A DNA stretch of 58,688 bases. Origin: Bacteroidota bacterium (GTDB taxonomy: Bacteria; Bacteroidota; Ignavibacteria; UBA10030; BY39). The notes under the pieces were generated by a model. The model made no database searches, had not been told where the DNA came from, and saw only the letters and a list, made by a program, of their open reading frames with translations. The stretch is from assembly GCA_030017895.1 (NCBI GenBank), contig JASEGV010000009.1, positions 1 to 58,688 of the forward strand. Direction: 5' to 3'. Shown here piece by piece: positions 35,509 through 57,033 of the stretch. The stretch's first letter is position 1. Each line of letters opens with the position of its first letter. A program made the translations under genes and the position numbers.

Positions 35509-36873
35509 TTGAATAATTATAACATACTTTTTTTATCGTTGAACGGTGAGTTGAGTTCAACTTTAGCTTCAAAGTTGCATCGAACTGGTATCTCTATTAA
35601 AAATTTTACATCTATTCAAAAAGTAGAAGAGGAATTAGCATCAAAACAATACCGTGTGTGCATTGCACGTTGTGATAGTGTGGATGATAATTTATTAAAA
35701 TTAACTCAATTTATTAAACAACAAAAACTACCAGTCGAACTCATAGTAAGCTCTAAAACTGGTTTCATCGAAGATGCAATTCGTGTTATCAAATCGGGCG
35801 CAACTGATTTTGTAGTGGGAGACTTGTTCGATCCAAGATTAGTAGAAGCAATATTAAAAGGATTAACAAATTATGGTGGATATTCTACTGAAACAGATTC
35901 TGAAAACGATAAAGCATATTATGAATCTGGCGTAGCACTTATTGGACAAAGTTCTGCGATTTGCGAAATCCGTTCAGCAGTTTCTTTGGTTGCGAAATCA
36001 CAAACAAACGTTTTGATAACCGGTGAAAGCGGAACAGGAAAAGAAGTTATCGCTAAACATTTACATTTATACAGCGATAGAGCAGCAAAACCATTTGTCG
36101 CACTGAATTGTGCGAGTATTCCTAAAGATATTATCGAAAATGAATTATTCGGACATGAGAAAGGCGCGTTTACAGGTGCTTTGCAGAAAAAACTTGGAGC
36201 CTTCGAAATAGCTGATAACGGAACTCTTCTGTTTGATGAAATTGGAGAGATGAGTTTAGATACGCAAGCAAAATTACTCCGAGCAATTGAAACTCAAAAA
36301 TTTAGAAGACTTGGTGGTAAAGAAGAAATTAAAGTTGACGTCCGGATAATCGCAGCTACAAATAGGAACATTACAGAAGCTCTCCAATCGAAAGAACTTC
36401 GCGAAGATCTGTACTATCGACTAAGCGTTATCGAAATTTATATCCCCCCATTGCGGGAGAGAAAAGAAGACCTTCCGTTACTTGTTGATTATTTCTTAAA
36501 AATGTTTGCAAAAAAGTATAATAAATTTATTCATAAATTTTCAGACGAAACATCGGGGCTATTATTTGCCTATGACTGGCCAGGGAACGTAAGAGAATTA
36601 AAAAATATTGTTGAACGAGCGTTGGTGATTTGTCCGACTGAAGTTATCAGTTCACATTATTTGCCTAAAAAATTACAAAAACCAGCACAAAATCGAGAAT
36701 CAATTAATATTCCGATCGGCTGTTCAACACAAGAAGCTGAACGGATGATAATTTTACAAACACTTGCATCCACGGGAAATAATAAAGCTAAAGCTGCAAA
36801 AATTTTAGGAGTCAGCCGGAAAACACTCCACAACAAATTAGCAATTATCCAACAAACAGGACGAGAGAGATAA
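35509..36873 (+). CDS. Sigma-54-dependent enhancer-binding regulator with degenerate receiver
   Basis: A 454-residue NtrC-family regulator. The receiver-like domain (1-120) lacks the acidic pair after strand 1 (FLSLNGEL) and the phospho-acceptor Asp after strand 3 (VCIARCDS), so it is probably not phosphorylated conventionally. The AAA+ domain (about 145-385) is intact: Walker A GESGTGKE (172-179), the sigma-54 contact loop GAFTGA (219-224), Walker B LLFDEIGEM and LRERKEDLP. A Fis-type helix-turn-helix at the C-terminus (NNKAKAAKILGVSRKTLHNKL) binds DNA. The start is TTG at 35509. It is the only complete sigma-54 activator in the window and the natural candidate for control of the exopolysaccharide promoters at 45.4-45.8 kb. 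Confidence 0.92.
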   Translation: MNNYNILFLSLNGELSSTLASKLHRTGISIKNFTSIQKVEEELASKQYRVCIARCDSVDDNLLKLTQFIKQQKLPVELIVSSKTGFIEDAIRVIKSGATDFVVGDLFDPRLVEAILKGLTNYGGYSTETDSENDKAYYESGVALIGQSSAICEIRSAVSLVAKSQTNVLITGESGTGKEVIAKHLHLYSDRAAKPFVALNCASIPKDIIENELFGHEKGAFTGALQKKLGAFEIADNGTLLFDEIGEMSLDTQAKLLRAIETQKFRRLGGKEEIKVDVRIIAATNRNITEALQSKELREDLYYRLSVIEIYIPPLRERKEDLPLLVDYFLKMFAKKYNKFIHKFSDETSGLLFAYDWPGNVRELKNIVERALVICPTEVISSHYLPKKLQKPAQNRESINIPIGCSTQEAERMIILQTLASTGNNKAKAAKILGVSRKTLHNKLAIIQQTGRER

Positions 36874-40972: not shown

Positions 40973-42916
40973 CTAATGCATCATGTTTTGCATTGATGAT
41001 TCGGATTTATCGAATGTAAAAATCTGTTGATTATATTTTGAATTCACATTATAGGACTGTAATTCTTCTATTCCGATTTTGGGATACCGTATTTTTATAC
41101 GGTGGGCGTTTGCAATTTTGACTAATCTTTTTATTACTTCTTGTTGAATGTTATCATTAAAGTAAAGAATTTCATCTACGGCGATTGTTTTTAATATTTG
41201 CGGAAGATTCCAATGACTACCAAGAATTTTAAAACCATTTATTCGCTTCCCTAATAGATGAGGATCATCATCAAGAAGACCCACAGGAAATATATTATAA
41301 AATGAATTTTTAGTAATCTGTTCTATTATCTTTAATCCATCGGCGCCCGCTCCATAAACCAATACTTTTTTTCTACCATTCGGATCATCATTGTGCGATA
41401 AATAATTAAGTATATTAAACAACAACCTGCCCCCAAGAACGAATGTAGTTAGCAAGTAAAAATTTAAAAGTAAAAAACTTAAATTTAAGTAACTAAAAGA
41501 TTGATGCGCTATAGAAAAAATAAGCCAAGTAAAGAACACCGCAACGATTATCGCTTTCAGTATCTTCAATAAATCACCTAATCCTAATTGTTTCATTGTC
41601 AGTTTATAAATTCCGCCGAAGAATAATATTGAAAACTGTGTTCCGGATATAATCGCAAGGTCTTTGTAAAATGATTTGTCATACAAAAAATCGGCTTGAT
41701 AGATTATCGATGTTAAATAATAAGTAATTCCAAAAGCAAGTGAAATAGATACAAGATCAAGAAAACCATGGAAAAGACTGCTCTTGAAAAATGGTTTTTC
41801 ATAAATGGGCAATAATGTTCCATTACGCAAAAGCGCCATTTCTTTGTAACCCAATTGGCTGACACCTAAAAATGTTGCCAGTCCGATTATTATCAAAATC
41901 GGAATAGCAATTATCGTATTTGCAATGGTTATAGCAAAAGCACCGACACTAAATATGATAGAGACTACATAAAGTATGATTACAACTTTGCGGTCGGATA
42001 TTCCGAAAGACATTAAGCGATGGTGCACATGACCTTTATCAGGATAAAATATAGAAACGACCTTTTTTATGAATGGTCTGGAATCTTCATAATCTCCAAC
42101 AATTGATCGCATCGACCTGCGTAACATCGAAAGTAATGTATCCATAATCGGTAATCCTAAAATGAGTATTGGTACGATTATAGAAAATGCTGTCGAACCT
42201 TTGGTCGTACTCATCATCGAAAGAATTGCTAAAGCAAAGCCAATGAATAAACTTCCCGAATCACCCAAAAATATTTTCGCCTTATTAAAATTGTATCTCA
42301 AAAAACCTAAAGTGGCACCTATTAACAATAAAGAGAGAAAAGAGGAAGTCAAATCATCACGTAAAAGTGATAACGAAAACATAGTTATTGAAGCAATCAA
42401 AGCTATACCCGACGCAAGTCCGTCAAGCCCATCAATAAGATTGAATGCATTCGTAATACCTACAATCCAAAGTATAGTAGCGGGGTAATCAAATATACCT
42501 AAATTCATTAACTCAAGGTCGAATGGTGAAGTAATAGCCGAAATCCTAAAACCAGCAAGATAAACTAGCGTGGCGGCGAGCCACTGTCCGATAAATTTTT
42601 TACCCGGGCTAATCTGTTTTATATCGTCCCAAATGCCTAAGATTAATACCAAAGTTAATGAAACGAGTAACATAATACCCGTTGATGGATTAATAAAATT
42701 TATAGTAGGATTGAAGTATATACAAAGCACTAACGAGATAAAAAAGCTCAAATAAATAGCCAAACCACCTAACCGGGGAATAGGAAATTTGTGAACTTTT
42801 CGTTCATTGGGAATGTCCATCGCCCCCGCATACTTCGCAAGTGAGATTATTGCTGGTGTCAAAACTAAAGACATCAATAATGGAATTGTAAATATGATTA
42901 TAAATTGATATAACAT
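40973..42916 (-). CDS. WecA/MraY-type glycosyl-1-phosphate transferase fused to Rossmann domain
   Basis: A 647-residue membrane protein. The N-terminal half (about 1-350) is a polyprenyl-phosphate sugar-1-phosphate transferase with NERKVHKFPIPRLGG, WDDIKQISPGKKFIGQ (Asp97-98), NLIDGLDGLASG (159-170), KIFLGDSGSLFIGF and GHVHHRL. This half should start the repeat unit by loading a sugar phosphate onto undecaprenyl phosphate. About four more membrane helices follow (380-510). A Rossmann fold comes last (about 538-630, KKVLVYGAGADGLKIIEQI), like the N-terminal part of FlaA1/CapD-type dehydratases but without their catalytic SDR domain. It is the last gene of the minus-strand exopolysaccharide arm. 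Initiating role is well supported; the role of the C-terminal half is not known. Confidence 0.9.
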   Translation of the reverse strand: MLYQFIIIFTIPLLMSLVLTPAIISLAKYAGAMDIPNERKVHKFPIPRLGGLAIYLSFFISLVLCIYFNPTINFINPSTGIMLLVSLTLVLILGIWDDIKQISPGKKFIGQWLAATLVYLAGFRISAITSPFDLELMNLGIFDYPATILWIVGITNAFNLIDGLDGLASGIALIASITMFSLSLLRDDLTSSFLSLLLIGATLGFLRYNFNKAKIFLGDSGSLFIGFALAILSMMSTTKGSTAFSIIVPILILGLPIMDTLLSMLRRSMRSIVGDYEDSRPFIKKVVSIFYPDKGHVHHRLMSFGISDRKVVIILYVVSIIFSVGAFAITIANTIIAIPILIIIGLATFLGVSQLGYKEMALLRNGTLLPIYEKPFFKSSLFHGFLDLVSISLAFGITYYLTSIIYQADFLYDKSFYKDLAIISGTQFSILFFGGIYKLTMKQLGLGDLLKILKAIIVAVFFTWLIFSIAHQSFSYLNLSFLLLNFYLLTTFVLGGRLLFNILNYLSHNDDPNGRKKVLVYGAGADGLKIIEQITKNSFYNIFPVGLLDDDPHLLGKRINGFKILGSHWNLPQILKTIAVDEILYFNDNIQQEVIKRLVKIANAHRIKIRYPKIGIEELQSYNVNSKYNQQIFTFDKSESSMQNMMH

Positions 42917-42927
42917 AAAATAATAGT

Positions 42928-43746
42928 TTAAATAGATGCTACAATATTTTCATTACAGGATGATGGCTGTGATAATTGAACATCTCGTAGATATTCCGGT
43001 AAGTGTTTAGCCAAAATAACCTGATTGTTGCACAGAGATATAGAATGATCCACGACAGAGAACAATTGTTTTGTATTGCCAGGCCAATTATAATTCACCA
43101 ATAATTCAAGGGCTTCTCTTGAAAAACCCTTTATAGCTTTTATCGCAGCAACATTCGATTCTCTTAACATTTTTTCGACTAAAAAAGGTAAATCTTCTTT
43201 CCTTTCTCGAAGAGGAGGTATATTAACACTAATCGGACATATTGAAGAATGTACCTCTTTTTTGGGTGGATAGAATGATAATTGAGTAGAATCTTTTTCG
43301 GTTGTTCCGCCAATAATTCTAAAACTTACATTTAACTCCTCGACACCATTCAATCTATGATAATGCTTATTTTTCAGCACGCTGCCAATTTTTGCTTGAA
43401 TGTCCAATGATATTGAAGAAATATTTTCTAAAAAAAGAGTTCCACCGAAAGCCACTTCCAACAACCCTTTATTGATTGCTACACCGGAGACGGTGAGTTC
43501 TTCGAATCCAAATATTTTTTTCTCAAGTTCAGCAGCCGGTATACTGTTACAATCAAACATAATAAAATTATTATTTTTCCGACTGCTTAAATCATGAATG
43601 ATTTTTGCGAGCCCTTCCTTTTCAGTTCCTTGTTCCCCTACAATTAAAACCCCGATGCCACTCATAGATATTAGTTCAACGGTTTGGAAGATGTGGGTCA
43701 TAGCAGGGCTAACATAAAAGCTCGATAATTTTGTTTTTGTTGGCAT
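42928..43746 (-). CDS. Degenerate sigma-54 activator-like AAA+ protein without DNA-binding domain
   Basis: A 272-residue protein clearly derived from a sigma-54 enhancer-binding AAA+ domain (PPLRERKEDLPFLVEKML, YNWPGNTKQLFSVVDHSI) but altered at key sites. Walker A reads GEQGTEKEG (37-45) instead of GESGTGKE. The GAFTGA loop has become TVSGVA (about 85-90). Walker B reads TLFLENI rather than LFLDEI. There is no receiver and no Fis-type helix-turn-helix at the C-terminus. It is therefore unlikely to activate sigma-54 holoenzyme alone. It lies inside the exopolysaccharide operon, 11 bases before the WecA-type gene and 8 bases after the barrel gene. It may modulate the complete regulator at 35509 by mixed oligomers, or have become a structural or scaffold ATPase-like protein. 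Confidence 0.82.
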   Translation of the reverse strand: MPTKTKLSSFYVSPAMTHIFQTVELISMSGIGVLIVGEQGTEKEGLAKIIHDLSSRKNNNFIMFDCNSIPAAELEKKIFGFEELTVSGVAINKGLLEVAFGGTLFLENISSISLDIQAKIGSVLKNKHYHRLNGVEELNVSFRIIGGTTEKDSTQLSFYPPKKEVHSSICPISVNIPPLRERKEDLPFLVEKMLRESNVAAIKAIKGFSREALELLVNYNWPGNTKQLFSVVDHSISLCNNQVILAKHLPEYLRDVQLSQPSSCNENIVASI

Positions 43747-43754
43747 AACTTTTT

Positions 43755-44663
43755 TTATAAATTTAGTGCAATCGAAAGATACATTTCCTGGTTTGTTACT
43801 TTTTGAGGAAATATCGAGTAATCGATTGAAAATATTTTTGTTTGGATTCCAACCCCGATGGTCGCAAATCGTAAATTATTTTCTACTATGTATCCCCCTC
43901 TGAGTACCAAAAAATTTGTAACGTTCATTTCTAACCCACCTTTATACCGAAGGCCGGCTTTCCCAAAAATCTTTTCGTTTGCTAACGCAAATGAAAACAA
44001 CTGATTCTTCATATCTGACGGGAACTTCATTGTAATACCAGCTTGAAGACTGTGAGCTAATGTGATTCGGTTGAGCTGAGTTGTACCTTTATCAATAGAA
44101 TAGTCGATACCATTTCCGATGCTATTCAGAACTAATCCATAACTAATATTTTCAGCAGGTGAATAATTTGCACTAACCGAAGTTCGAACAGACCATAATT
44201 GTGAAACATCGCTTTTTGCAAACCTAACACCTACTAAAGTACCAATACTTAAAGAATGTAAAATTTCGCGGGCATACCCTACATCAGAGCATAACTGCCA
44301 TAATTTAAATTCAGTCGGAGAATTCTTTCGTATATACCCTGTATGGATCAATGACAAGCCAATTGCCATAACTTCACCGGTTTTTAAGCTAATTGGTATA
44401 GCAATACCCTGACTCATTCCATTTATAGATTTTTCCTGCATATGGTTAAACAGTATCGAGTAATTTCGTAATTTCGTAAGCCCTGCCATATTCCAATACA
44501 TTCCGTTCACATCGAAGGCATCAGAAACAAACGCCTCGGCAAGGGCTGCAGATCTGGCACCAAGTACTGTCGATGTTTTGTTGAAATAATTTGTTTGGGC
44601 ATTTGCACAAGCATAAATCGCAAACAAGAATAGAAATAGATATTTAATGTTTTTAGTCTTCAC
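43755..44663 (-). CDS. PorV/PorQ-family outer-membrane barrel (exopolysaccharide cluster)
   Basis: A 302-residue outer-membrane protein with a signal peptide (about 1-22, CANAQ). The family opening is TSTVLGARSAALAEAFVSDAFDVNGMYWNMAGL, with amphipathic strands up to QEMYLSIALNL. It is related to the 20188-21192 product but divergent. Its position between the Wza-like gene and the AAA+ gene suggests a role in secretion or surface attachment of the polysaccharide or of cluster proteins. That is inference. It starts six bases after the export lipoprotein gene. Confidence 0.8.
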   Translation of the reverse strand: MKTKNIKYLFLFLFAIYACANAQTNYFNKTSTVLGARSAALAEAFVSDAFDVNGMYWNMAGLTKLRNYSILFNHMQEKSINGMSQGIAIPISLKTGEVMAIGLSLIHTGYIRKNSPTEFKLWQLCSDVGYAREILHSLSIGTLVGVRFAKSDVSQLWSVRTSVSANYSPAENISYGLVLNSIGNGIDYSIDKGTTQLNRITLAHSLQAGITMKFPSDMKNQLFSFALANEKIFGKAGLRYKGGLEMNVTNFLVLRGGYIVENNLRFATIGVGIQTKIFSIDYSIFPQKVTNQEMYLSIALNL

Positions 44664-44669
44664 GATTAT

Positions 44670-45368
44670 TCAATTAAAGAATCTAAAAAAACTGAAAATA
44701 AAAATTGCTTCTCTCATGAAATCGGATAATTCTCTTATCACATTGTTCTTCTTGGGTACATATACCGTGTCGCCTGGGCGAACTATCGGTATTGCAGAAA
44801 TATTTCCATTTTCGATGTAAGAGACAAGGTCGACTTCAATGGGTAGTGTGTTCAAACCTCCCCGCAATATCTTGATGCTGCGTAGATCAGAGTCCACTGT
44901 AATACCGCCGGCAGTAGATAGAATTTCGATTAATGATAATTCACTAGTGATCGTATAATTATCTTGTCTTGAAACTTCGCCGAGAACAGTAACTTTTTGA
45001 ACAACAACACTTGTAATATTCAATGAAACCTTTATTTCACCTTGGATGTAAACAGATAATTTTTGTTTGAGTTGTTCGATAAATTGGTCTTTTGTAAGTC
45101 CGGCAACAACTATCTCACCGATAAGGGGAACCGTTAATAAACCTGTTTCCTTAACGGGTCCTTGAAAATTAAACTCAGGATACCCCCAAACTATTACTTG
45201 AATTTGATCGCCCAACCTAATTACATAATTATCAGCTTGTGAATCACCATGCATCGGCTGACTGCCTGATCGAATTATTTGTGTCAGATTATCTTTTGCT
45301 ATATCTGCCGAAGAAGAACAGCCCACAATTAATAAAAAAGATAAGAAAACAATTAAGATTAGTTTCAT
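44670..45368 (-). CDS. Wza-like polysaccharide export lipoprotein
   Basis: A 232-residue lipoprotein with a lipobox (LIVGC, Cys 17). The polysaccharide export domain (about 47-125, YVIRLGDQIQVIVWGYPEFN, GLLTVPLIGEIVVAGLT) is followed by an SLBB domain (about 126-205, VTVLGEVSRQDNYTI, GGITVDSDLRSIKIL, RPGDTVYVPK). Wza-type proteins form the outer-membrane exit channel for capsular or exopolysaccharide. At 232 residues it is shorter than E. coli Wza and has a hydrophobic C-terminal stretch that may serve as the outer-membrane helix. It is the first gene of the minus-strand arm and lies opposite the wzz gene across the divergent promoter region. Confidence 0.9.
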   Translation of the reverse strand: MKLILIVFLSFLLIVGCSSSADIAKDNLTQIIRSGSQPMHGDSQADNYVIRLGDQIQVIVWGYPEFNFQGPVKETGLLTVPLIGEIVVAGLTKDQFIEQLKQKLSVYIQGEIKVSLNITSVVVQKVTVLGEVSRQDNYTITSELSLIEILSTAGGITVDSDLRSIKILRGGLNTLPIEVDLVSYIENGNISAIPIVRPGDTVYVPKKNNVIRELSDFMREAIFIFSFFRFFN

Positions 45369-45426
45369 TACGAAGTTTTTTAATGTTCGTTAAGTTGTTA
45401 ATACCATTATTATTTCATTCATATGT

Positions 45427-45442
45427 TTCAAAGGCTATGCCA
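45427..45442 (-). promoter_or_regulatory. Sigma-54-like promoter for minus-strand exopolysaccharide arm
   Basis: Minus-strand TGGCAT-AGCCT-TTGAA: the GG at -24 and the G at -12 are spaced correctly (GG-N10-GA), with one mismatch in the -12 element. It lies about 60 bases upstream of the Wza-like gene and would be served by the palindromes at 45564-45641. Confidence 0.45.
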
Positions 45443-45563
45443 TCATATATGACTGCAAATTGACAATTATTGGGCGATTTTTAAGCGATTAACAAAATCC
45501 ATAATTAATTTTCACTTAAAAACAAATAGTTTTAACACCTTTAGTTGAATAAAATTGTGAAAA

Positions 45564-45580
45564 GTGTAACCTTCTTACAC
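45564..45580. promoter_or_regulatory. Operator/upstream activating palindrome 1 (GTGTAA-N5-TTACAC)
   Basis: A perfect 6+6 inverted repeat with a five-base spacer, repeated with the same half-sites 61 bases away, in the middle of the divergent spacer. Distances to the two sigma-54-like promoters (about 120-180 bases) are typical of enhancer sites. Confidence 0.65.
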
Positions 45581-45624
45581 ACTTAACTCAACAATTAGAA
45601 AGCGATATGCTATATTTATAAAAT

Positions 45625-45641
45625 GTGTAAAATAATTACAC
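45625..45641. promoter_or_regulatory. Operator/upstream activating palindrome 2 (GTGTAA-N5-TTACAC)
   Basis: Same half-sites and spacing as palindrome 1, extended to TGTGTAA...TTACACA. Sites 1 and 2 are 61 bases apart, close to six helical turns, so dimers bound to both would lie on one face of the DNA. Confidence 0.65.
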
Positions 45642-45745
45642 ACATATTACTCGATAATTTTGAAATCAAGTGTAGAATTGAAAAATTTATGAATAGCGTT
45701 ACTTAATAATTAAATAAATACAAAGAAATAGGGATTAATTTTTCA

Positions 45746-45761
45746 TGGCATATAAATTGCA
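45746..45761 (+). promoter_or_regulatory. Sigma-54 promoter for plus-strand exopolysaccharide arm
   Basis: TGGCAT-ATAAA-TTGCA matches the -24/-12 consensus TGGCAC-N5-TTGCW at ten of eleven defined positions, with GG-N10-GC exact. The predicted start near 45772 gives a leader of about 38 bases before the wzz start. Confidence 0.7.
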
Positions 45762-45809
45762 ATTTTTTTAGATTACTTATAAAATATTTAATAATCAAGG
45801 GTAAATAAT

Positions 45810-47156
45810 TTGAATTCAGCTCAACTTACAATTTTCGAAATGATTTCACTCTTTCGGAGAAGAAAGATTTTTTTATTAATTCCGATTGTAATTGTTACTA
45901 CGGTGAGTATAATTGGGGCTTTTATACTCCCAAAATCTTATGAATCATCAACAACGATTTTATATCAACGGGATGAAACTTCTACTCCTATATTAGGATT
46001 GGAAATCAGGTCTTCATTAGGGACAGAAGATAGGTTGAATCTGTATAGAGAAATACTTTCGAGTCGAACCATTTTACAACAACTGATTGACAGTCTCGGA
46101 CTCAAAGAAAAAGCATCCACTGAGAAAGATCGGCAAGCATTGATTGCTTCTCTTGCAAAGAAATTTGACATCGAGAACAAAGGTTCTGGTTCGTTCACGA
46201 TAATATATACCGATGATGAAGCTTTGAGAGCACAAAAGGCAGTCGAAGTTCTCACGCACTTATTGATTGAAACTATTTCTCAAGTTCAGACACAACAAAA
46301 CGACCAATCTGTTCAATTTTTTGAAAATAAACTGAAAGAGACTCGTGAAAAATTTGAAGAAAGTCAACGCAAAATAATTACACTTATCGGAAATCGTGTA
46401 AGCACATTACCGGAACAAAGCAAAATTCAATATACCCAAATAGAAAATGTTGATAAACAGATTAACGATTTGGATGTCCGTTTAAACATTTATCAACAGG
46501 CTCTTAACATATTGCAATCTGTTTCGAAACCGCCACGAATCGAAAAAAATAAAGAAACACTATACAACCTAACGAGAATGGACATCCCATTTGCCTCTGA
46601 TCTGAATTTATTTTTAAAAAAGTATGACGATTTTTTACAAAAATATACTCCACAATATCCGGAAGTAAAGAATGTTGAAAACCAGATTTCTGAATTACTC
46701 ATTCGTATACAAAATGCACTTGAATCAGAAATTGGCAAGAGAAACCCGCAACGAATGGAATTTGAAAATAAGCGAGCTCAACTGCTGGAAAATGTGCAAC
46801 AAACATTTATTAGTGGTCATCTAAATGCAGAACAGGAATCCGATTTTAACCTATACCGGAAATTATATGATGATATGAAAGTGCGTCTCGAGCAAGCCAA
46901 GTCAACTCGAGACCTAGGATACAAAACAGGGCATCAATTTGTTATCCTCGACCCACCGCTTTTACCAACAACAGCTACAAAACCTAAAAAAATCCAATTG
47001 ATCCTTGCCGGTTTGGGTATCGGAATATTTTTAGGTTTTATATCTGTTATTATGCGGGAACTCTTTGATACCACAGTCAGAACACAGAGGGATATTGAGA
47101 TTTATCAAAAGCCAATTATTGCTTATATCTCAGATGGAAACGACGACCGCACTTAA
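45810..47156 (+). CDS. Wzz-type chain-length / co-polymerase protein
   Basis: A 448-residue inner-membrane protein. It has a first membrane helix at about 20-40 (IFLLIPIVIVTTVSIIGAFI), a long periplasmic coiled-coil region (about 45-395, rich in E, K and Q), and a second helix at about 402-422 (IQLILAGLGIGIFLGFISVIM) preceded by a proline-rich PPLLPTTATKP. This is the polysaccharide co-polymerase layout that sets chain length and links Wzy to export. No kinase domain is fused; the partner ATPase is the next gene. The start is a TTG at 45810 behind AAGGGT; an in-frame ATG at 45840 would shorten it by 10 residues. Confidence 0.92.
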   Translation: MNSAQLTIFEMISLFRRRKIFLLIPIVIVTTVSIIGAFILPKSYESSTTILYQRDETSTPILGLEIRSSLGTEDRLNLYREILSSRTILQQLIDSLGLKEKASTEKDRQALIASLAKKFDIENKGSGSFTIIYTDDEALRAQKAVEVLTHLLIETISQVQTQQNDQSVQFFENKLKETREKFEESQRKIITLIGNRVSTLPEQSKIQYTQIENVDKQINDLDVRLNIYQQALNILQSVSKPPRIEKNKETLYNLTRMDIPFASDLNLFLKKYDDFLQKYTPQYPEVKNVENQISELLIRIQNALESEIGKRNPQRMEFENKRAQLLENVQQTFISGHLNAEQESDFNLYRKLYDDMKVRLEQAKSTRDLGYKTGHQFVILDPPLLPTTATKPKKIQLILAGLGIGIFLGFISVIMRELFDTTVRTQRDIEIYQKPIIAYISDGNDDRT

Positions 47157-47204
47157 TAAAAATAACATCAATAATTAATTTAGAATCAAGATTGGAAAAA
47201 TAGA

Positions 47205-47987
47205 GTGGCAATATCAGATAATCGCATTGAGATCGTCGAAAATCCCGAAAACGAAAAGAACGGCAAAATTATCCGTTTAATAAAATCCGTAATAGTAAAT
47301 CAGGAAACAAGTAATTACATCGACAATTCGGTTATTAAATATAAATACTATAACTCTTTTAATTTTTCGCTTCTTTCACGGGAACGTCAAAACCTAAATT
47401 TCACAGTAGGTATAACGAGCCCTCAAAAAGGCGAAGGAAAAACGCTTATCGCAAGTAATCTTGCTGTCTCTTTCGCTCTGGGCTCACAAAAAAGTACAAT
47501 ATTGGTCGATTTAAATATTGCTAATCCGCGTTTACATAAGATATTCGGAGTTCCCCTCTCACCAGGTTTGACCGAATCTCTGAATGATAGCAATATCAGT
47601 GTTTCGAAAACAGCTATCGAAAATCTTTCGGTACTAACAGCGGGGAAAAAAGTAATTCTACACGAAAAATTATTCCCAAAAACATCAGCCGATGGAACAC
47701 GACCACAACCAATTCAACCATCGCTCGGTTTAGAACAGCTTGCCTCATTCCGTGACGTCTTATATTCTCTTGAACAAAAATATGAGATCATTATCGTTGA
47801 CATGCCGGCAATTAATTCTACGACAATTCCATTGTTATATACAAACCAATTACAAGGACTAATCGTTGTTGTCCAGAGCGAAAGAACTAAAAAAGAAGAT
47901 ATAGATAAATTATTACAGCGAGTTAATGAACGGAATGTTCTGGGATTTGTTATGAACCGGTTTTCAGATAAAGATCATAAGGGATAA
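47205..47987 (+). CDS. Wzc/CapB-like cytoplasmic P-loop ATPase (tyrosine autokinase family)
   Basis: A 260-residue cytoplasmic partner of Wzz. Walker A SPQKGEGKT at 72-80, Walker A' ILVDLNIANPRLH (99-111; the usual Asp-Leu-Arg is altered to Leu-Asn-Ile) and Walker B IIIVDMPA (195-202) identify the BY-kinase/MinD-like family that drives capsule assembly. The C-terminus lacks the tyrosine cluster of true autokinases, so regulation may be by ATP cycling alone. The start is GTG at 47205. The separate Wzz plus ATPase arrangement follows the Firmicute CapA/CapB layout rather than a fused Wzc. Confidence 0.88.
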   Translation: MAISDNRIEIVENPENEKNGKIIRLIKSVIVNQETSNYIDNSVIKYKYYNSFNFSLLSRERQNLNFTVGITSPQKGEGKTLIASNLAVSFALGSQKSTILVDLNIANPRLHKIFGVPLSPGLTESLNDSNISVSKTAIENLSVLTAGKKVILHEKLFPKTSADGTRPQPIQPSLGLEQLASFRDVLYSLEQKYEIIIVDMPAINSTTIPLLYTNQLQGLIVVVQSERTKKEDIDKLLQRVNERNVLGFVMNRFSDKDHKG

Positions 47988-47994
47988 AGTCAGT

Positions 47995-48174
47995 ATGCTC
48001 TCTGTCATAGGCACATTAAGCCTAATTATGTTTGTGATAATCCTGAGTAAATTTAAAAAAGAATTACGATGGAGCGGGTACATTCAAATATTTTTTATTG
48101 CTTTACTTCAGGTTTGTATAGTCATTCTTGTGATGTACGCACTGGAAGTTCCGTTAATTAAAATCCCGAGATGA
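47995..48174 (+). CDS. Small two-helix membrane protein, coupled to wzy
   Basis: A 59-residue frame (MLSVIGTLSLIMFVIIL at the start, ending VPLIKIPR) between the ATPase and the polymerase genes. Two hydrophobic helices (about residues 3-18 and 30-50) are joined by a basic loop KFKKELRW. It starts seven bases after the ATPase stop, and its stop overlaps the next start as ATGA, so it is most likely translated and coupled. No family was recognised. A small helper of Wzy or of the Wzz/ATPase complex is a plausible guess. Confidence 0.65.
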   Translation: MLSVIGTLSLIMFVIILSKFKKELRWSGYIQIFFIALLQVCIVILVMYALEVPLIKIPR

Positions 48175-49685
48175 CGATGGAAGAATTGTACGCTAATAAA
48201 TATAATCAAAATAAAAAAAATAATTTGTTTTGGATTCTTGGAATTGTTCTAACTTCTATTGCAATATCATTCATGTATGTAATTAGCGAAGGGAGTGCTT
48301 TTACATCTGTTGCCATAATTTTGATTGCTTTGATAATTACGATCACATTCTACAGAATAGATTGGGGTTTTATTTTGTTTGTAGGAATGGTGTTGGCTTT
48401 CGACCAATTTCCACCGCGAGGCTACGGAATCACGATAATCGGCCAAGAATATTTTCAAAATTTAAAATCACTGAAATATTTTTCCAAAATCGATTTTGCT
48501 GTAATCAATCCTCTTGAATTGCACATTTTTCTGATATTAACAGTTTGGATTATTTTGATTTCTACCGGTAAAAAAGTAAATCTAATGCGTGTACCGGTTT
48601 GGCTATCGACAATTTTATTTTTTGCATGGCTTTTTTTGTCATTCATCTACGGAATGTCAACCGGAGGTAGTTTTTTGCCCGCACTCTGGGAATTAAGGGC
48701 ATTATTTTACTTAGGAATTATTTTTTTTCTAACACCTCAAATTATTCAGTCAAGAGAACAAATTGTCAATCTAATTTGGGTTTGTATCGGAGCAATTGCG
48801 TTCAAAGCAGTTCAAGGTTTGATTCGTTTAGTTAGATTAGGTTTCAATTTTGGATCTCGTACAGAATTGACAAATCACGAGGACCCACTATTTTTCGTTT
48901 CATTATTAATTCTTTTATTGGGATTAATCTTATTTAAATATAACTCCAGGCAAAGACAGGTGCTATCCTGGATAAGTTTACCCCTTTTGTTTGTTTTTGT
49001 GCTTTCCCAACGACGAGCAGCCTATGCAGCGTTAGGATTTGCAATAATAACTTTTATTATACTTCTTCCAAAATTAGAACGATTAAAGTTAATAAAAATA
49101 CTTATTCCTGTAGTTATATTATTTAGCATCTATACAATCAGCTTATGGAATAATGAAAGTACTTTTGCAATACCCGCACAATTAGTTAAAACAATTTTTG
49201 TCGAACCAAAATCGAAAGACGACTTACGATATTATTCAAACTTATATCGGGATTTTGAAAATTATAATTTAGCTCAAACAGTCAAGAGAGCACCTGCAAT
49301 CGGAATTGGATTCGGGAATAAATACGACCAACCCGTAATGCTCACTAAAATTCCTTTCCCTTTGCAAGAATATATACCACATAACGAAATATATTGGCTG
49401 TTTGTAAAAACGGGAGCCATAGGTTTCTTTCTCTTCTGGCTTTTCATCGACTCATATATTCTTCGAGCTGCTTTTATTTTTAATCGACTAAAGGATTTAT
49501 ACTTCAAATCACTGTGTGCTGTTATAATCGTCGCCATTGTAGGTCAAATTGTAGTTTCCTTTTATGATTTACAATTTACTTACTATCGCAATATGGTTTT
49601 TTTAGGAATGTTGATGGGATTGCTTCCTGTGATTGATAAACTTGATAAACTTGAACATGAGATTAAAACTAACATTAATGTATAA
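48171..49685 (+). CDS. Wzy-type O-antigen/exopolysaccharide polymerase
   Basis: A 504-residue integral membrane protein with about 11-12 predicted helices and a large central loop at about 330-420. SQRRAAYAALGFA and the loop residues PAIGIGFGNKYDQP then YIPHNEIYWLFVKTGAIGFF match the O-antigen ligase/Wzy_C family, whose loop histidine (here IPHNEIYWL) is catalytic in related ligases. It should polymerise lipid-linked repeat units on the periplasmic side. The start ATG at 48171 overlaps the stop of the small membrane protein. Ligase versus polymerase cannot be told apart by sequence alone; position in a complete wz cluster favours polymerase. Confidence 0.87.
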   Translation: MTMEELYANKYNQNKKNNLFWILGIVLTSIAISFMYVISEGSAFTSVAIILIALIITITFYRIDWGFILFVGMVLAFDQFPPRGYGITIIGQEYFQNLKSLKYFSKIDFAVINPLELHIFLILTVWIILISTGKKVNLMRVPVWLSTILFFAWLFLSFIYGMSTGGSFLPALWELRALFYLGIIFFLTPQIIQSREQIVNLIWVCIGAIAFKAVQGLIRLVRLGFNFGSRTELTNHEDPLFFVSLLILLLGLILFKYNSRQRQVLSWISLPLLFVFVLSQRRAAYAALGFAIITFIILLPKLERLKLIKILIPVVILFSIYTISLWNNESTFAIPAQLVKTIFVEPKSKDDLRYYSNLYRDFENYNLAQTVKRAPAIGIGFGNKYDQPVMLTKIPFPLQEYIPHNEIYWLFVKTGAIGFFLFWLFIDSYILRAAFIFNRLKDLYFKSLCAVIIVAIVGQIVVSFYDLQFTYYRNMVFLGMLMGLLPVIDKLDKLEHEIKTNINV

Positions 49686-50472
49686 AGCGAATATTTTAAA
49701 TATTTCCGACACCCCGAAAAATAATTCATTAAAAATTCTTAATGTCAGGATAGATAATGTAAAAATGTCGAATGTTCTTGATATAATCGATAAAATGATT
49801 ATCAACAAAAAGTGCCATCAAATCGTTACGGTTAATCCTGAATTTGTTATGGAAGCTCAGAAAAATTTAAAATTCCGTGAAGTGTTAAATAATGCTGCAC
49901 TTTCGCTGCCCGATGGGATCGGAATCGTGCTCGCGTCAAAATTAATATCTCAACCATTAAAAGAACGTGTTACTGGAATCGATACTGTACAAAAGCTCGC
50001 TTGCCTAGCCGCTAAACAAGGATGGCGTATCTTTTTCTTAGGAGCGGCTCCAGGTGTTGCCCATCAAGCAGCCATAAAATTGCAGATATTATATCCGGGA
50101 TTGCAAATCGCCGGGACTTATTCAGGTTCACCTAACGTACAAGAAGAGGACGAAATTTGCTCGTTGATAAAATCTGCCAAACCTCAAATACTTTTAGTGG
50201 CATTCGGGGCACCAAAACAAGACTTATGGATAGCACGAAATTTAGAGAGACTTGGTGTTCCGGTCGCGATTGGTATAGGAGGAACTTTCGATTTTATCGC
50301 TGGTGTTGCTCGTCGAGCCCCTCTTTGGGTTCAAAAAATCAGTTGCGAATGGTTATTTCGATTAATGAAAGAACCTCGCCGTTGGAAAAGAATGTTGGCT
50401 TTACCAAAATTTATTTTTTTGATTTTCAGTTCTCTCATATCACTCAAAACCATAAATAAGGAAAAATCTTGA
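49678..50472 (+). CDS. WecG/TagA/CpsF-family glycosyltransferase
   Basis: A 264-residue GT26 enzyme. Family motifs are clear: VTVNPEFVMEAQKN, SLPDGIGIVLASKL, RVTGIDTVQKLA, FFLGAAPGVAHQAA, LVAFGAPKQDLWIA and IGIGGTFDFIAGVARRAP, ending in EWLFRLMKEPRRWKRM. It transfers a sugar, often ManNAc or ManNAcA, to a lipid-linked GlcNAc at the inner face of the membrane, probably the second sugar after the WecA-type transferase. I chose the ATG at 49678, which overlaps the wzy stop by eight bases; the longer frame from 49633 only adds wzy-overlapping residues. Confidence 0.93.
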   Translation: MYKANILNISDTPKNNSLKILNVRIDNVKMSNVLDIIDKMIINKKCHQIVTVNPEFVMEAQKNLKFREVLNNAALSLPDGIGIVLASKLISQPLKERVTGIDTVQKLACLAAKQGWRIFFLGAAPGVAHQAAIKLQILYPGLQIAGTYSGSPNVQEEDEICSLIKSAKPQILLVAFGAPKQDLWIARNLERLGVPVAIGIGGTFDFIAGVARRAPLWVQKISCEWLFRLMKEPRRWKRMLALPKFIFLIFSSLISLKTINKEKS

Positions 50473-51965
50473 ACAAAGAAATTGCAAAATCGATTGCAAA
50501 AAATACAACTGTATTAATGGGTTCTCAATCAGTTACATGGACCATGAGTTTTTTGCTATTGCTTTTCCTCCCCCGCTATTTGGGTAGTGTAGATTATGGA
50601 AGGTTGTATCTTGCAAATTCAATATTTGCGATATTTATGTTATTAATTGATTTTGGAGGCAGATACTCAATAACAAAAGAGGTTGCCAGATCACGGGAAT
50701 CTGTTGGTTCTATTGCTGTAAATGCAATAGGTATCCGAATAATTTTTTGGGCTTTCTCTTTTCTAGGGCTCGTTATATTCACCTTTCTATCCGGTTATCC
50801 GCCTGTACTGCAGATTCTTCTTGTATTATATGGAATCAGCATGTTATGGGAAAGCACACGCAAAGTCTTGTGGAGTTGCTACCAAGGATTTGAGCAAATG
50901 AGATACCCATCGATCGCTGCAATTGTCGAACAGATTTTTATAACAATATTCGCTATAACAGCATTATTGCTTGGTGCAGGTCTTTTAATAATCGGTACGA
51001 TTATGGTAATTGGGTCACTTCTAAATTTTGGAATTCATGTAAAGTTTGCAAAACAAATTATTTCTACATTACCCCGATTTCAGTTTAAAGAATCATTAAA
51101 ACTTATAAGAAAGGGCATCCCCTTTTTCCTCTGGTCAATTTTTGGATTGATATATTACCGTGTTGATGCTGTAATGCTCTCATTTATGACACCTGAATCA
51201 ATTGTCGGTTGGTATGGTGCTGCCTATCGATTCTTCGACATTTTGATGTTCATTCCAAGTATTTTCAGTGTAGCGGTTTTCCCTATTCTGTCTCGAATTT
51301 GGAAAGATAAAGAGGGTTTATCATTAACAACAAGCAAAAGTCTCGATTTCATTATAGTTGCCGGAATACCGGTAAGCATTAGCTTATTTTTTTTCGCACA
51401 CGAAATAATTAATCTTTTTTATGGTTTAGCCGGGTTTGGTCCCACAGTTTTAATTTTAAAAATCTTCTCCGTCGGAATTCTCTTAGTATATATTGATATG
51501 ATTTTAGGAACTGCGATATTAGCTTCAGATAAACTACGCCAATGGTCACTTGTTGCTCTTGCTGCAGTTTTCATAAACATCGGATTAAATTATTTTATGA
51601 TTCCATATACTCAAGTAAACTATGGAAATGGTGGGATAGGAGCTGCCATTGCAACGATAATCACTGAATTTTTTGTTATGCTTTTTGCCCTGTACCTAAT
51701 TCCAAAAACAACATTGGCTATTGCGCGTCCGAGCGTCAGCATTAAAGCGATTACAAGCGGTCTGTTTATGGTCGGTGCATTGTATGCGCTTTCATTTTCT
51801 CCTCAACCCTGGGTCATAGAAGCAATCGTCGGTATTCTCATATATGGGGTCATATTACTAATTATAAAAACACTAGAACCAGAAGAACTCGATTTTTTTA
51901 AAGAATATATTACTTTTAAAAACTTAAAAAATATAATTATCCCTTCAAAAGGAAAGGAAGAATGA
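50469..51965 (+). CDS. Wzx-type polysaccharide flippase
   Basis: A 498-residue membrane protein with about 12-14 predicted helices and the polysaccharide-export (MATE-related) pattern: an N-terminal LMGSQSVTWTMSFLLLLFLPRYLG, then FGGRYSITKEVARS, FFLWSIFGLIYYRVDAVMLSF and GIGAAIATIITEFFVMLFAL. It should flip undecaprenyl-linked repeat units to the periplasmic face. The start is TTG at 50469, overlapping the previous stop as TTGA, and the stop overlaps the next start as ATGA. Tight coupling through the whole arm shows one transcript. Confidence 0.93.
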   Translation: MNKEIAKSIAKNTTVLMGSQSVTWTMSFLLLLFLPRYLGSVDYGRLYLANSIFAIFMLLIDFGGRYSITKEVARSRESVGSIAVNAIGIRIIFWAFSFLGLVIFTFLSGYPPVLQILLVLYGISMLWESTRKVLWSCYQGFEQMRYPSIAAIVEQIFITIFAITALLLGAGLLIIGTIMVIGSLLNFGIHVKFAKQIISTLPRFQFKESLKLIRKGIPFFLWSIFGLIYYRVDAVMLSFMTPESIVGWYGAAYRFFDILMFIPSIFSVAVFPILSRIWKDKEGLSLTTSKSLDFIIVAGIPVSISLFFFAHEIINLFYGLAGFGPTVLILKIFSVGILLVYIDMILGTAILASDKLRQWSLVALAAVFINIGLNYFMIPYTQVNYGNGGIGAAIATIITEFFVMLFALYLIPKTTLAIARPSVSIKAITSGLFMVGALYALSFSPQPWVIEAIVGILIYGVILLIIKTLEPEELDFFKEYITFKNLKNIIIPSKGKEE

Positions 51966-53149
51966 AGTTACTACATATAATGCCATATTCTCCAGTGCCA
52001 CCAACTTTTGGTGGTGCTCTTCGAATTTACAATTTACTTCGCCAGATGACAAAAAACCATGAAGTTACACTTATTACTTTTGGTAATTCGAACACTGAAT
52101 TTGAATTACGTTCTCATTTCGACACTAACCTGAAAAATATACACGTATTAAATTATCCTTATCTAAAGCCGTTCAAACGTTTTAACCAACTTTTCTCTCT
52201 ATTTAATAAGAGCAGTTTTGCATTCCGAAGAACATATCATCAAGAAACGCAGAGATTGATTGATGGAATCGTGACTTCTGACAACTTCGACATTGTGCAA
52301 ACCGAATTTCCACACATGGCATCATACAAAATCAATTCTGATGCAATCAAAATTATGGATGCACATAATGTCGAATATTCAATACTTAAATACCAATGGC
52401 AGCACACATCTTCACCATTACGGAAGATTTTCTATCACAAAGAATTTCAAAAAATTTTTCATGAAGAAATCACCGTTTGCCGGCGTCAAGACGCTCTTTT
52501 GGTTACTTCAGCTGACGATAAGAATACATTAGATAAAGATGTACCGGACGTTCCAAAATATATTGTACCTAATGGTGTGGATACTAATTACTTTATTCCT
52601 TCGACAGAAAAACCCAAGCCACACACATTAGTTTTTTCAGGCGCGATGTCGTATATACCGAACTACGATGGTATTCTATACTTTCTTGATAATATATTTC
52701 CGCTAATCACAAAATCAATTCCAGATACAAAGTTGTACATTGTAGGAAACATGCCACCTAAGAATTTACTAAAGCGAGCCTCTGAAAATATTATAATAAC
52801 CGGTTACACTGATGATGTACGACCTTATATATGGAGATCGAGTGTATATATCGTACCACTACGAATGGGAAGCGGAACTAGATTAAAAGTATTAGAAGCT
52901 CTCTCAATGAAAAAACCTATCGTTACAACTACCATCGGTTGCGAAGGCATTGATGTAGAAAATGGACGAACAGCCATTATTACTGATGAGCCACAAGCTT
53001 TTGCAGAAGCCGTAATAAGAATTTTGAAAGATCCATATCAATCAAAAAATTTGATTGATAACGGTTTTGAACTAGTTAAAAAGCGATACGATTGGTCCGT
53101 AATTGGTGAAAAATTGGATAATGTTTACAATTTATTAATAAAAAAATGA
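51962..53149 (+). CDS. GT4-family glycosyltransferase (group 1)
   Basis: A 395-residue GT-B enzyme with N-terminal acceptor domain MKLLHIMPYSPVPPTFGGALRIYNLL and DAHNVEYSILKYQW. The C-terminal donor domain has VFSGAMSYIPNYDGILYFLD, VGNMPPKNL, VYIVPLRMGSGTRLKVLEAL and MKKPIVTTTIGCEGID. The pattern is close to the sugar transferases found with EpsH/PEP-CTERM-type systems. It adds a sugar to the growing repeat unit in the cytoplasm; donor and linkage are unknown. ATGA overlap with wzx and with the following acetyltransferase gene. Confidence 0.92.
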   Translation: MKLLHIMPYSPVPPTFGGALRIYNLLRQMTKNHEVTLITFGNSNTEFELRSHFDTNLKNIHVLNYPYLKPFKRFNQLFSLFNKSSFAFRRTYHQETQRLIDGIVTSDNFDIVQTEFPHMASYKINSDAIKIMDAHNVEYSILKYQWQHTSSPLRKIFYHKEFQKIFHEEITVCRRQDALLVTSADDKNTLDKDVPDVPKYIVPNGVDTNYFIPSTEKPKPHTLVFSGAMSYIPNYDGILYFLDNIFPLITKSIPDTKLYIVGNMPPKNLLKRASENIIITGYTDDVRPYIWRSSVYIVPLRMGSGTRLKVLEALSMKKPIVTTTIGCEGIDVENGRTAIITDEPQAFAEAVIRILKDPYQSKNLIDNGFELVKKRYDWSVIGEKLDNVYNLLIKK

Positions 53150-53727
53150 CAATATCTGAATACATAAGATTTGTACGCTCACGTTTGCACCGTCATACAA
53201 TTATTGAACACATAAAAGGATTATGGTTTAAACGTAAGTTTACTAAAGCGAAAATTATAGTTGTCGCCGGAGGATTTCCTTTCCCTAAAATAATAAACGA
53301 AGGTGGAAAAATATTCGCTGATAATTGCCAATTTTTTCCCGGCGTTCGATTGGAAGTCGGTAAGGATGCGTGTATTAAAATCGGCAAAGGAACTTACTTG
53401 AATCGGAATACCGTAATTGTATCACAAAAGCAAGTTGAAATTGGAAACAATTGTAAAATATCCTGGGATGTTGTGATAATGGATTCAGATTTACATCCTC
53501 TCCCTGGTAATACAAAAATAATTTCAAAACCAGTAGTGATAATGGATAATGTATGGATTGGCTGTAGAGTGATTATTTTAAAAGGGGTTACGATTGGATC
53601 TGGAGCAATTATCGCTGCTGGTGCAGTAGTCACAAAAGATATTCCGGCTAATTCGATTGCTGCCGGAGTACCGGCACAGGTATTATCATTTAATAATAAG
53701 AAGAAGAAGGAAGGAAATGCAGAATAA
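53146..53727 (+). CDS. Hexapeptide-repeat O-acetyltransferase
   Basis: A 193-residue left-handed beta-helix protein of the WbbJ/NodL/Maa type. Hexapeptide turns run from about residue 75 to 185 (IKIGKGTYLNRNTVIVS, VEIGNNCKISWDVVI, DNVWIGCRVIILKGVTIG, GAIIAAGAVVTKDIP). The likely catalytic His is in MDSDLHPLPG (about 118). It probably acetylates a sugar of the repeat unit using acetyl-CoA. ATGA overlap upstream and overlap with the deacetylase start downstream. Confidence 0.9.
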   Translation: MTISEYIRFVRSRLHRHTIIEHIKGLWFKRKFTKAKIIVVAGGFPFPKIINEGGKIFADNCQFFPGVRLEVGKDACIKIGKGTYLNRNTVIVSQKQVEIGNNCKISWDVVIMDSDLHPLPGNTKIISKPVVIMDNVWIGCRVIILKGVTIGSGAIIAAGAVVTKDIPANSIAAGVPAQVLSFNNKKKKEGNAE

Positions 53728-54589
53728 TTCAAAGAACGGGAAGAAACATCCAGGATTAGGGAACTCTAATAAAATTAAAGTTCTGATGTATCATATTGTC
53801 ACAGATGATAAAAGCTTTTGCAGTAAAAACAGAAATATCGCAGTTCACGTAAGCGAGTTCCGCAACCAAATGAAATTTCTTGATCGCTGTGGATTTGTAA
53901 CTATTACTTTCGAAGATTATTTGCTTTATATGAACGGAGAATTAAATTTACCCAAAAAACCTATTATATTATCGTTTGACGATGGTTTTGCTGATGTTCA
54001 TCAATATGCATTCCCAATTTTACAAGAATTTGGTATGCGGGCAGTTTTATTTATTTTAGGCGACAGAAAAATTAAAACAAATAGTTGGGATCATGCTTCC
54101 GGAATCTCACCCAAACCACTGCTCGCCGACTATCAAATTATCGAAATGCACGATGCCGGTTTCGAAATTGGCTCCCATGCTTTAACTCATAGTAAACTTA
54201 CAAATATTCAACGAGAAAAAGCTTGGGAAGAAATATCTCGCTCGCGAATGTTATTAGAAATTTTTCTCAATACTCAAGTTAAGTCAATTGCCTACCCTTT
54301 TGGAAGCGTTAATAAAACTTTAAAAATATTAGCAGAGGAAGCCGGCTATCAAATTGGATGTGGCAGCTATTCAGGTCCATTAGTTTTCGGAAAAGATCGT
54401 TTTGAAATTCACCGAATAAACATTCCCGGACAATTGACTATTTTTCAATTTGCACTCCGCCTATCAAGGCTTCATCATTATTTGGAATGGACTTGGTGGC
54501 GATTGATGAAAAATGGTAAAATAAATAAAAATCGGTTATCAGTTTTTAGTTCTAGTAAAGGTGAGATACAAAATAATAATTATCACTAA
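53717..54589 (+). CDS. Polysaccharide deacetylase (CE4 family)
   Basis: A 290-residue NodB-type deacetylase. Metal and catalytic motifs are present: ILSFDDGFADVH (catalytic Asp plus metal Asp) and EIGSHALTHSKLT (the HxxxH metal pair), then AYPFGSVN. There is no signal peptide, so it may act in the cytoplasm on lipid-linked sugars or use an unusual export route. It removes N- or O-acetyl groups, perhaps opposing or following the acetyltransferase encoded just upstream. I chose the ATG at 53717, preceded by AAGGAAGGA; the frame from 53657 overlaps too far into the previous gene. Confidence 0.92.
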   Translation: MQNNSKNGKKHPGLGNSNKIKVLMYHIVTDDKSFCSKNRNIAVHVSEFRNQMKFLDRCGFVTITFEDYLLYMNGELNLPKKPIILSFDDGFADVHQYAFPILQEFGMRAVLFILGDRKIKTNSWDHASGISPKPLLADYQIIEMHDAGFEIGSHALTHSKLTNIQREKAWEEISRSRMLLEIFLNTQVKSIAYPFGSVNKTLKILAEEAGYQIGCGSYSGPLVFGKDRFEIHRINIPGQLTIFQFALRLSRLHHYLEWTWWRLMKNGKINKNRLSVFSSSKGEIQNNNYH

Positions 54590-54597
54590 ACATATAA

Positions 54598-55962
54598 ATG
54601 AAAAATCCACACACAACAATAAATTCAAATCATTCATTTATTCAACATCAGATGGAAGATGCATCCAAAGCAAAAAACTTAAAGTTACGTTTCGTCACGA
54701 GTGAAGAAGAATTCTATGCACTTCAAAGCGAATGGGATAATTTAATTCAACAAACTAATGCAAAGATATATCAAACTTTCGAATGGCTTTCGAATTGGTG
54801 GAGATTTTATGGCGACAAAAAAATTGATAAATTACATTGCTTACTTTTTTACCATAACGAAATATTAGTAGGAATTGCCCCTCTGTATATTCGTCATAAA
54901 TATTTTTTAGGGTATAATTTTTATCGCCGTATTTATTTTTTGGGAGGAGATACATCGGTCGGTACATCTTTCGGTTTATTTTGTGATGGAGGTCCAAGTG
55001 ATTATTTAGATATCATTTCGCTTCCACATTACGAACACAGTATCGCTGTAGCATTTCTTCAATACATTCAAGAAATTAAACCCTCCAATACCCAATTGGT
55101 TCTCGTCGACGTCAGAGCTGATAGCAATTTGTATCTGTATTTTCTACCAATATTGAGGAAAAGTGATTTATCTTTTAAAATTTTAGAAGCCGACAAAAGC
55201 CCTTATATAGTTACACCTGATTCATTTGATGATTTTCTCAAAAGCCGTTCTAGCAGCGTTCGACGAAGACTTCAGCAATCATGGAAAGAAGTAGGAGAAA
55301 AATCGCTTTTCACACTTAATGATGAAAAAGATGCCAACGACTTAGATACTGCAATAGGCAATATTAAACGGTTGCATCAAAATCGATGGAATTTCTTAGG
55401 TTATCCAGGTTTTTTTGGCGATCCACGTTATGAAAAATTTTTTGAAAAAGTTCTACAATTATTTTTTCAAAGGGGCTGGTTGTGGTGTAAAACCATAATG
55501 GCTGGCGATAGATGCCTCGCTGGACGTCTGGCATTCAGGTATAAAGGTGAATATTACGATTACCTTTCAGGTATCGACGATAAAGCACCTGAAATGAAAC
55601 GAAGACCCGGACTTGTACTATTACTTGCCATGATTCAAGATTCTATAATGGAAAAGGCATCTGTGATTGACTTACTTAGAGGTGAAGAATCTTATAAAAA
55701 AGATTTTACCGTAAATATGATTTCTAATTGGAATGTATTAATAACTCTTGATAATAAAAATAATCGGTTTAAATCAATTTTTTTGAACTTATTTCTGGGT
55801 TTAAAGTTTTTAGCTTTTTTAATTGACCGTGAATGTAAACTATTTAAAGTAACACATAATTATAAACGCTTCCCGATTTCAATAATATTTTTTATAAAAT
55901 TTCGAACACAATCTTTCATAAATAAAATCAAGGAATTATTAAACAAGAAAAGGACTAAATAA
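54598..55962 (+). CDS. CelD/FemAB-like GNAT acyltransferase
   Basis: A 454-residue protein of the GNAT-type family named after CelD (acetyltransferase linked to cellulose synthesis), with FemAB-like double fold. Visible pattern: LQSEWDNLIQQTNAKIYQTFEWLSNWW near 40-67, IAPLYI, SSSVRRRLQQSWKEV, then RLAFRYKGEYYDYLSGIDDK, and VIDLLRGEESYKKDF near the C-terminus. Members modify exopolysaccharides or transfer acyl or aminoacyl groups. A hydrophobic or basic tail follows. The start ATG at 54598 may be preceded by an alternative 18th-residue Met. It is in the exopolysaccharide arm, nine bases after the deacetylase gene. Confidence 0.85.
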   Translation: MKNPHTTINSNHSFIQHQMEDASKAKNLKLRFVTSEEEFYALQSEWDNLIQQTNAKIYQTFEWLSNWWRFYGDKKIDKLHCLLFYHNEILVGIAPLYIRHKYFLGYNFYRRIYFLGGDTSVGTSFGLFCDGGPSDYLDIISLPHYEHSIAVAFLQYIQEIKPSNTQLVLVDVRADSNLYLYFLPILRKSDLSFKILEADKSPYIVTPDSFDDFLKSRSSSVRRRLQQSWKEVGEKSLFTLNDEKDANDLDTAIGNIKRLHQNRWNFLGYPGFFGDPRYEKFFEKVLQLFFQRGWLWCKTIMAGDRCLAGRLAFRYKGEYYDYLSGIDDKAPEMKRRPGLVLLLAMIQDSIMEKASVIDLLRGEESYKKDFTVNMISNWNVLITLDNKNNRFKSIFLNLFLGLKFLAFLIDRECKLFKVTHNYKRFPISIIFFIKFRTQSFINKIKELLNKKRTK

Positions 55963-55965
55963 ATT

Positions 55966-57027: not shown

Positions 57028-57033
57028 TTAGAT

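Follow-up and report, generated by a model that had tools for sequence, protein, structure and literature searches.

The 441-bp region between the divergent wza-like and wzz-like genes quite probably acts as a two-way sigma-54 switch, and its activator would most likely be the protein encoded from position 35509 of the window (the whole 58,688-nucleotide stretch of DNA that was analysed). We infer from the sequence that both GTGTAA-N5-TTACAC palindromes of this region would be bound by NtrC-type activator dimers, the 35509 protein being the most likely candidate. The bound activator would assemble its AAA+ ring and loop to the sigma-54 RNA polymerase waiting at both -24/-12 promoters. The export arm (wza, the PorV-like gene, a degenerate activator core named pEBP and the wecA-like gene) and the assembly arm (wzz, the tyrosine kinase, wzy, wzx and others) would be switched on together. 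A little-studied branch of the Bacteroidota/Chlorobiota thus gains a testable circuit, in which a whole surface-polysaccharide pathway would be switched from one 441-bp region.

Features of the predicted switch, its two gene arms and its candidate activator (positions in the window).
Feature	Position	Strand	Remarks
Candidate activator	35509..36873	+	Pseudo-receiver (Asp -> Arg), intact sigma-54 AAA+ domain, Fis-type HTH
WecA-like glycosylphosphotransferase, C-terminal CoA_binding_3 part	40973..42916	-	
pEBP, stand-alone degenerate sigma-54 AAA+ core, third gene of the minus arm	42928..43746	-	PF00158, 105.8 bits
PorV/PorQ-like outer-membrane protein	43755..44663	-	NF033709, 80.8 bits vs cut-off 90
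wza-like polysaccharide export protein, first gene of the minus arm	44670..45368	-	Poly_export and SLBB domains; below TIGR03027 cut-off
Weaker sigma-54 -24/-12 promoter TGGCATAGCCTTTGAA	45427..45442	-	Predicted, for the wza arm
Palindrome 1, GTGTAACCTTCTTACAC	45564..45580		Predicted upstream activating site; exact match, kept in G001
Palindrome 2, GTGTAAAATAATTACAC	45625..45641		Predicted upstream activating site; exact match
Sigma-54 -24/-12 promoter TGGCATATAAATTGCA	45746..45761	+	Predicted, for the wzz arm
wzz-like chain-length determinant, first gene of the plus arm	45810..47156	+	
Bacterial tyrosine-kinase-like ATPase	47205..47987	+	
Rest of the plus arm: Wzy, WecG/TagA, Wzx, glycosyltransferases, hexapeptide acetyltransferase, deacetylase, GNAT, AMP-binding enzyme	48171..58605	+	

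The spacer (45369-45809) is exactly the DNA between the start codons of the wza-like (minus strand) and wzz-like (plus strand) open reading frames, and it is very AT-rich (23% G+C). The initial annotation had read it as a compact divergent switch, with two palindromes 61 bases apart shared between outward-facing sigma-54 promoters, a strong one (TGGCAT-N5-TTGCA) for the plus arm and a weaker one for the minus arm. Both palindromes are indeed exact, with 12/12 half-site bases matching GTGTAA-N5-TTACAC and a spacing of 61 bp. They are the only two exact copies in the 3.2-Mb genome, in which a reversed control pattern does not occur at all. Within the window, matches with two mismatches or fewer number 7 against 2.4 expected, a count reached by no shuffle. 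This 6-N5-6 layout is that of NtrC sites. Genome-wide, 14 sites match with one mismatch, compared to 6 for the control. The 12 one-mismatch palindromes located elsewhere in the genome lie mostly inside open frames, as do the few that have a sequence loosely resembling a sigma-54 promoter no more than about 200 bp away, and no convincing sigma-54 promoter was found at any of the 12. Because these other sites are mostly coding and lack such a promoter, the candidate activator may serve the wza/wzz locus almost alone.

The two palindromes sit between the plus element TGGCATATAAATTGCA and the minus element TGGCATAGCCTTTGAA. Promoters were assessed by a GG at -24 and a GC at -12 with a 16-bp core spacing (TGGCAY-N5-TTGCW); the weights of the sigma-54 score were chosen by us and not taken from a published matrix, and the conclusions rest on comparison with shuffles scored identically. 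The plus element matches this pattern exactly and is one of only two exact matches in the genome. Exact matches occur genome-wide at the control rate, and exactness alone is weak evidence at that scale; within the 441-bp region, an exact match of the plus type is rare (shuffle p 0.003). The minus element matches in part, with GG and TTG present, and is rated the weaker promoter because the -12 GC is absent, as it also is from the minus promoter of most relatives. Its shuffle p is 0.043 over the whole region and 0.010 at its position. Measured to the plus -24 element, palindrome 2 is 104 bp away and the other palindrome 165 bp; to the minus -24 element, the two distances are 121 and 182 bp. Distances of 104-182 bp from -24 are in the usual range of sigma-54 enhancers. 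The genome carries a single rpoN copy. The other exact TGGCAY-N5-TTGCW match (contig C12:1672, minus strand) adjoins a double-receiver open reading frame and a sigma-54 activator gene (locus L011).

To compare the region across the order, wza orthologues were sought in 98 of its genomes. A close one was found in 27, and the divergent wza/wzz spacer was readable in 25. The congener G001 has both palindromes at the same 61-bp spacing together with both promoters; there the plus -12 is TTGAA, the minus -24 is TGGCAC and the minus element reads TGGCACAGCCTTTGAA. A sigma-54 promoter lies 39-90 bp before wzz in 18/20 lineages (dinucleotide shuffles: mean 0.74, maximum 4), and a weaker one lies before wza in 17/20 (mean 1.80, maximum 6). 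The palindrome was also sought without prior choice of motif, by scanning 4,096 half-sites at 13 spacings (53,248 patterns) in nine lineages, the discovery genus being excluded. GTGTAA-N5 ranked in the top five of the 53,248 palindromes, beside its close variants TGTGTA-N5 and GTGTAA-N3. In G040 and G005, which belong to another family, the two sites are separated from the plus -24 element by 99-100 and 164-165 bp, nearly the distances of the window. Related palindromes also occur between the two promoters in other lineages. No clear palindrome was seen in the spacers of G031 and G015; G031 nonetheless has a regulator of the 35509 type. Given the recurring promoters, the motif scan and the nearly repeated distances in G040 and G005, it is very probable that both palindromes and promoters are genuine elements maintained by selection. 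The compact divergent architecture initially proposed is thus supported by a comparison over about 20 lineages.

The product of the 35509 gene has GAFTGA, Walker A, the Walker B Asp-Glu pair and the Fis-type HTH, all intact, as in NtrC-type enhancer-binding proteins. However, its receiver carries an Arg at the position of the phosphorylated Asp, and this Arg is nearly invariant in the orthologues. Because the receiver lacks that Asp, the protein is, by its sequence, a pseudo-receiver enhancer-binding protein and cannot be an ordinary phospho-regulated response regulator; judged by the receiver Asp and acidic pocket expected of phosphorylated NtrC-type response regulators, it falls outside that class. 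Since phosphorylation at the usual Asp is precluded, its input is probably a protein-protein contact, the amount of activator or a modulator such as pEBP. The analysis thus names a family of sigma-54 activators that gave up phosphorylation.

Orthologues, searched for with the receiver-like domain, were found in 19 of the 98 genomes, i.e. in 17/27 of those bearing the locus and in 2/71 of the others. The profile search separated the 35509 type (92-170 bits) from ordinary receivers (65 bits or less) by a sharp gap, and the AAA+ domains of the orthologues cluster in the tree with a support of 100/99. At the species level, 17 genomes have both regulator and locus, 2 the regulator only, 10 the locus only and 69 neither (compared by a Fisher test, which ignores phylogeny); the corresponding counts at the genus level are 12/1/6/36. 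In five genomes the 35509-type gene is on the same contig as the locus, about 9-28 kb off. Moreover, in a 245-genome sample of the class, this regulator is confined to the order. The 35509 product, which the initial annotation had put forward as the activator, is the best candidate in view of its intact machinery, its co-occurrence and same-contig linkage with the locus, and its restriction to the order. That proposal is qualified by the pseudo-receiver and by the ten locus-bearing genomes, out of 27, in which this type was not found. A related observation concerns G043 (L107, L129), which encodes a 211-aa protein with the pseudo-receiver and HTH of the 35509 family but no AAA+ domain; no close wza was found in that genome.

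The ten genomes bear directly on another reading, in which the architecture is as described but a different NtrC-type activator of the genome binds the palindromes, 35509 merely travelling with the cluster. The genome encodes 16 full sigma-54 activators (15 besides 35509) and one degenerate core, and any of those 15 could be the protein that binds. Some of the ten locus-bearing genomes without a 35509-type regulator still have palindrome-like sites, and a more sensitive receiver model still revealed no such regulator in family f5, G033 and G015. The locus occurs without it in family f5 and in G033, sometimes with similar palindromes. The identity of the activator is not universal, because the 35509 type was not found in these ten genomes; judging from the sequences, another activator must serve them. 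For the window itself we consider a different activator unlikely, since the 35509 orthologues co-occur with the locus and are physically linked to it, and since their confinement to this order is what is expected of a dedicated regulator. In family f5 (G013, G018, G034 and others), where locus and palindrome-like sites are found without the 35509 type, a different activator probably reads a similar site.

A further reading makes the palindromes operators of a repressor or of a sigma-70-type regulator, with the sigma-54-like sequences driving the plus arm only, or neither arm. Symmetric 17-bp operators are used by other regulator families too, and in the window the minus promoter departs from the -24/-12 pattern. 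However, many lineages keep both promoter-like elements in the same position, and the palindromes are as far from the -24 elements as enhancers usually are, without overlapping a promoter. Nor does any other promoter type stand out in the spacer: sigma-70-like matches are at chance level (6 compared to 4.8), and no Bacteroidota-type -33/-7 promoter was found with up to one mismatch allowed. This reading is very unlikely. A LacI-type operator was considered on account of the LacI gene at 32441-33478 and was ruled out, the palindromes being of odd length (6-N5-6) and without a central CG. Finally, that palindromes and promoters are chance matches is scarcely credible: the spacer is AT-rich and single exact promoter matches are no more frequent than controls, but such an origin is contradicted by the positional conservation across genomes and by the high rank of GTGTAA-N5 in an unbiased scan from which the discovery genus was excluded.

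The degenerate activator core of the minus arm, pEBP, had been overlooked in the initial annotation. It is a protein of 272 aa without receiver or HTH, in which FEELTVSG takes the place of GAFTGA and Walker B reads LFLENI. Members were read in 15 genomes of five families; the gene adjoins the PorV-like gene and, in nearly all members with a long enough contig, has the wecA-like gene on its other side. In the family alignment, GAFTGA is present in 0/15 members and an intact Walker B Asp-Glu pair in 0/15, so that pEBP lacks in every member the features of a functional sigma-54 activator. In the window genus, the arginine finger and the sensor II arginine also look lost. An HTH is kept only in the G058 member. 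pEBP is under purifying selection (dN/dS 0.11-0.18). Its members form one side of a tree branch with a support of 100/100, some branches being long; because six of the genome's own activators were left out of the tree, the full activator nearest to pEBP cannot be read from it. Its closest solved relative is NtrC1 (146 bits). From its sequence, pEBP should fold like a subunit of the activator ring, and cannot activate sigma-54 by the known mechanism. The comparison thus exposes a conserved pseudo-enzyme relative of the sigma-54 activators; the pseudo-receiver activator and this conserved dead core are both of specialist interest.

Among solved structures, VpsR, a full-length regulator, can also be recognised as related to pEBP. 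Unlike full-length VpsR, pEBP has no DNA-binding domain in 14/15 members. VpsR of Vibrio cholerae is an NtrC-type protein with a defective GAFTGA and is linked to polysaccharide genes (PMC3162934). The nearest precedent for the domain layout is FleT of Cereibacter sphaeroides, which is listed among the functional sigma-54 activators (PMC3162934); fleT is under the control of FleQ and RpoN2, and its product assembles with FleQ into hetero-oligomers (PMC11999139). Like FleT, pEBP is a stand-alone AAA+ core without receiver or HTH; its gene lies in an operon behind the predicted minus sigma-54 promoter, from which it would be expressed. Unlike FleT, it lacks GAFTGA and intact catalytic residues and is located in a polysaccharide operon. 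Other hetero-oligomers of paralogues are discussed in PMC9542535.

As an extension of the switch model, we tentatively suggest that pEBP made from the minus arm could join the AAA+ ring of the activator, as FleT does with FleQ, and lower or retune activation. As a brake or adaptor, it would feed back on a regulator that phosphorylation cannot switch. The FleT precedent is consistent with this, as are the conservation of the stand-alone core as a single clade under purifying selection and the loss of both activator motifs in all members. However, the distributions of pEBP and of the 35509-type regulator across genomes do not match: 5 genomes have pEBP without the regulator, and at least 6 have the regulator without pEBP in the operon. 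pEBP could instead act in the polysaccharide machinery. The broader proposal, an order-wide polysaccharide switch in which a non-phosphorylation activator would be tuned by a catalytically dead pseudo-activator from its own operon, devoid of DNA binding, so that a degenerate paralogue provides a mixed-ring feedback brake, is more speculative still and somewhat unlikely. If pEBP does tune the ring, evolution would have supplied AAA+ machines of this class with a modulator in the form of a dead subunit.

Divergent sigma-54 operons activated by one enhancer-binding protein, FhlA, are found at hyc/hyp of E. coli. The divergent arrangement predicted here is alike, whereas the signal (formate), the domains and the target genes differ. 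Divergent units under one sigma-54 activator are also already known from the zraP/zraSR genes of E. coli, where ZraR binds the bidirectional spacer (PMC8249747). As with ZraR, one spacer between divergent units would be nearly the only target of an NtrC-family activator, which is a prediction in the present case. Unlike ZraR, which is phosphorylatable, autoregulated and linked to envelope stress, the candidate activator here has a pseudo-receiver and its gene is 9 kb away.

Surface polysaccharides are already known to come under sigma-54 control (PMC3162934), and the closest known system is PrsK/PrsR, which with RpoN controls PEP-CTERM/exosortase genes (Haft 2006, PMC1569441; PMC9850573). The site predicted for PrsR spans 17 nt, ends in TTTACA, is repeated in some cases and lies on average 63 nt from the -24/-12 element (PMC1569441). 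Both systems tie an NtrC-type activator and a sigma-54 promoter to an exopolysaccharide cluster, and the proteins of the present cluster resemble those of the XrtA system, but below their cut-offs. Unlike PrsR, 35509 has a pseudo-receiver, and the targets of the predicted switch are the polysaccharide genes themselves, on both sides of the spacer. Membership in the PEP-CTERM/exosortase systems was ruled out: the genome gave no PF09721 match for an exosortase, its best TIGR02916 match (PrsK) scored 138.8 bits against a cut-off of 300, and 35509 reached 338.7 bits with TIGR02915 (PrsR) against a cut-off of 502.6. By these comparisons, the switch would work like PrsK/PrsR but is not a member of that system.

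Two further observations concern the surrounding genes. The wzz and tyrosine-kinase-like genes are separate in the window (45810-47987) and in most relatives, and are fused into a single 705-aa open reading frame in G001 (L024:5542-7659). Between the 35509 gene and the polysaccharide cluster lie two tandem GH18 (chitinase-like) genes, at 36902-38881 and 39069-40637, which share stretches of DNA, the second ending in a type IX secretion sorting-like domain. GH18-like genes are also found near the locus in some relatives.
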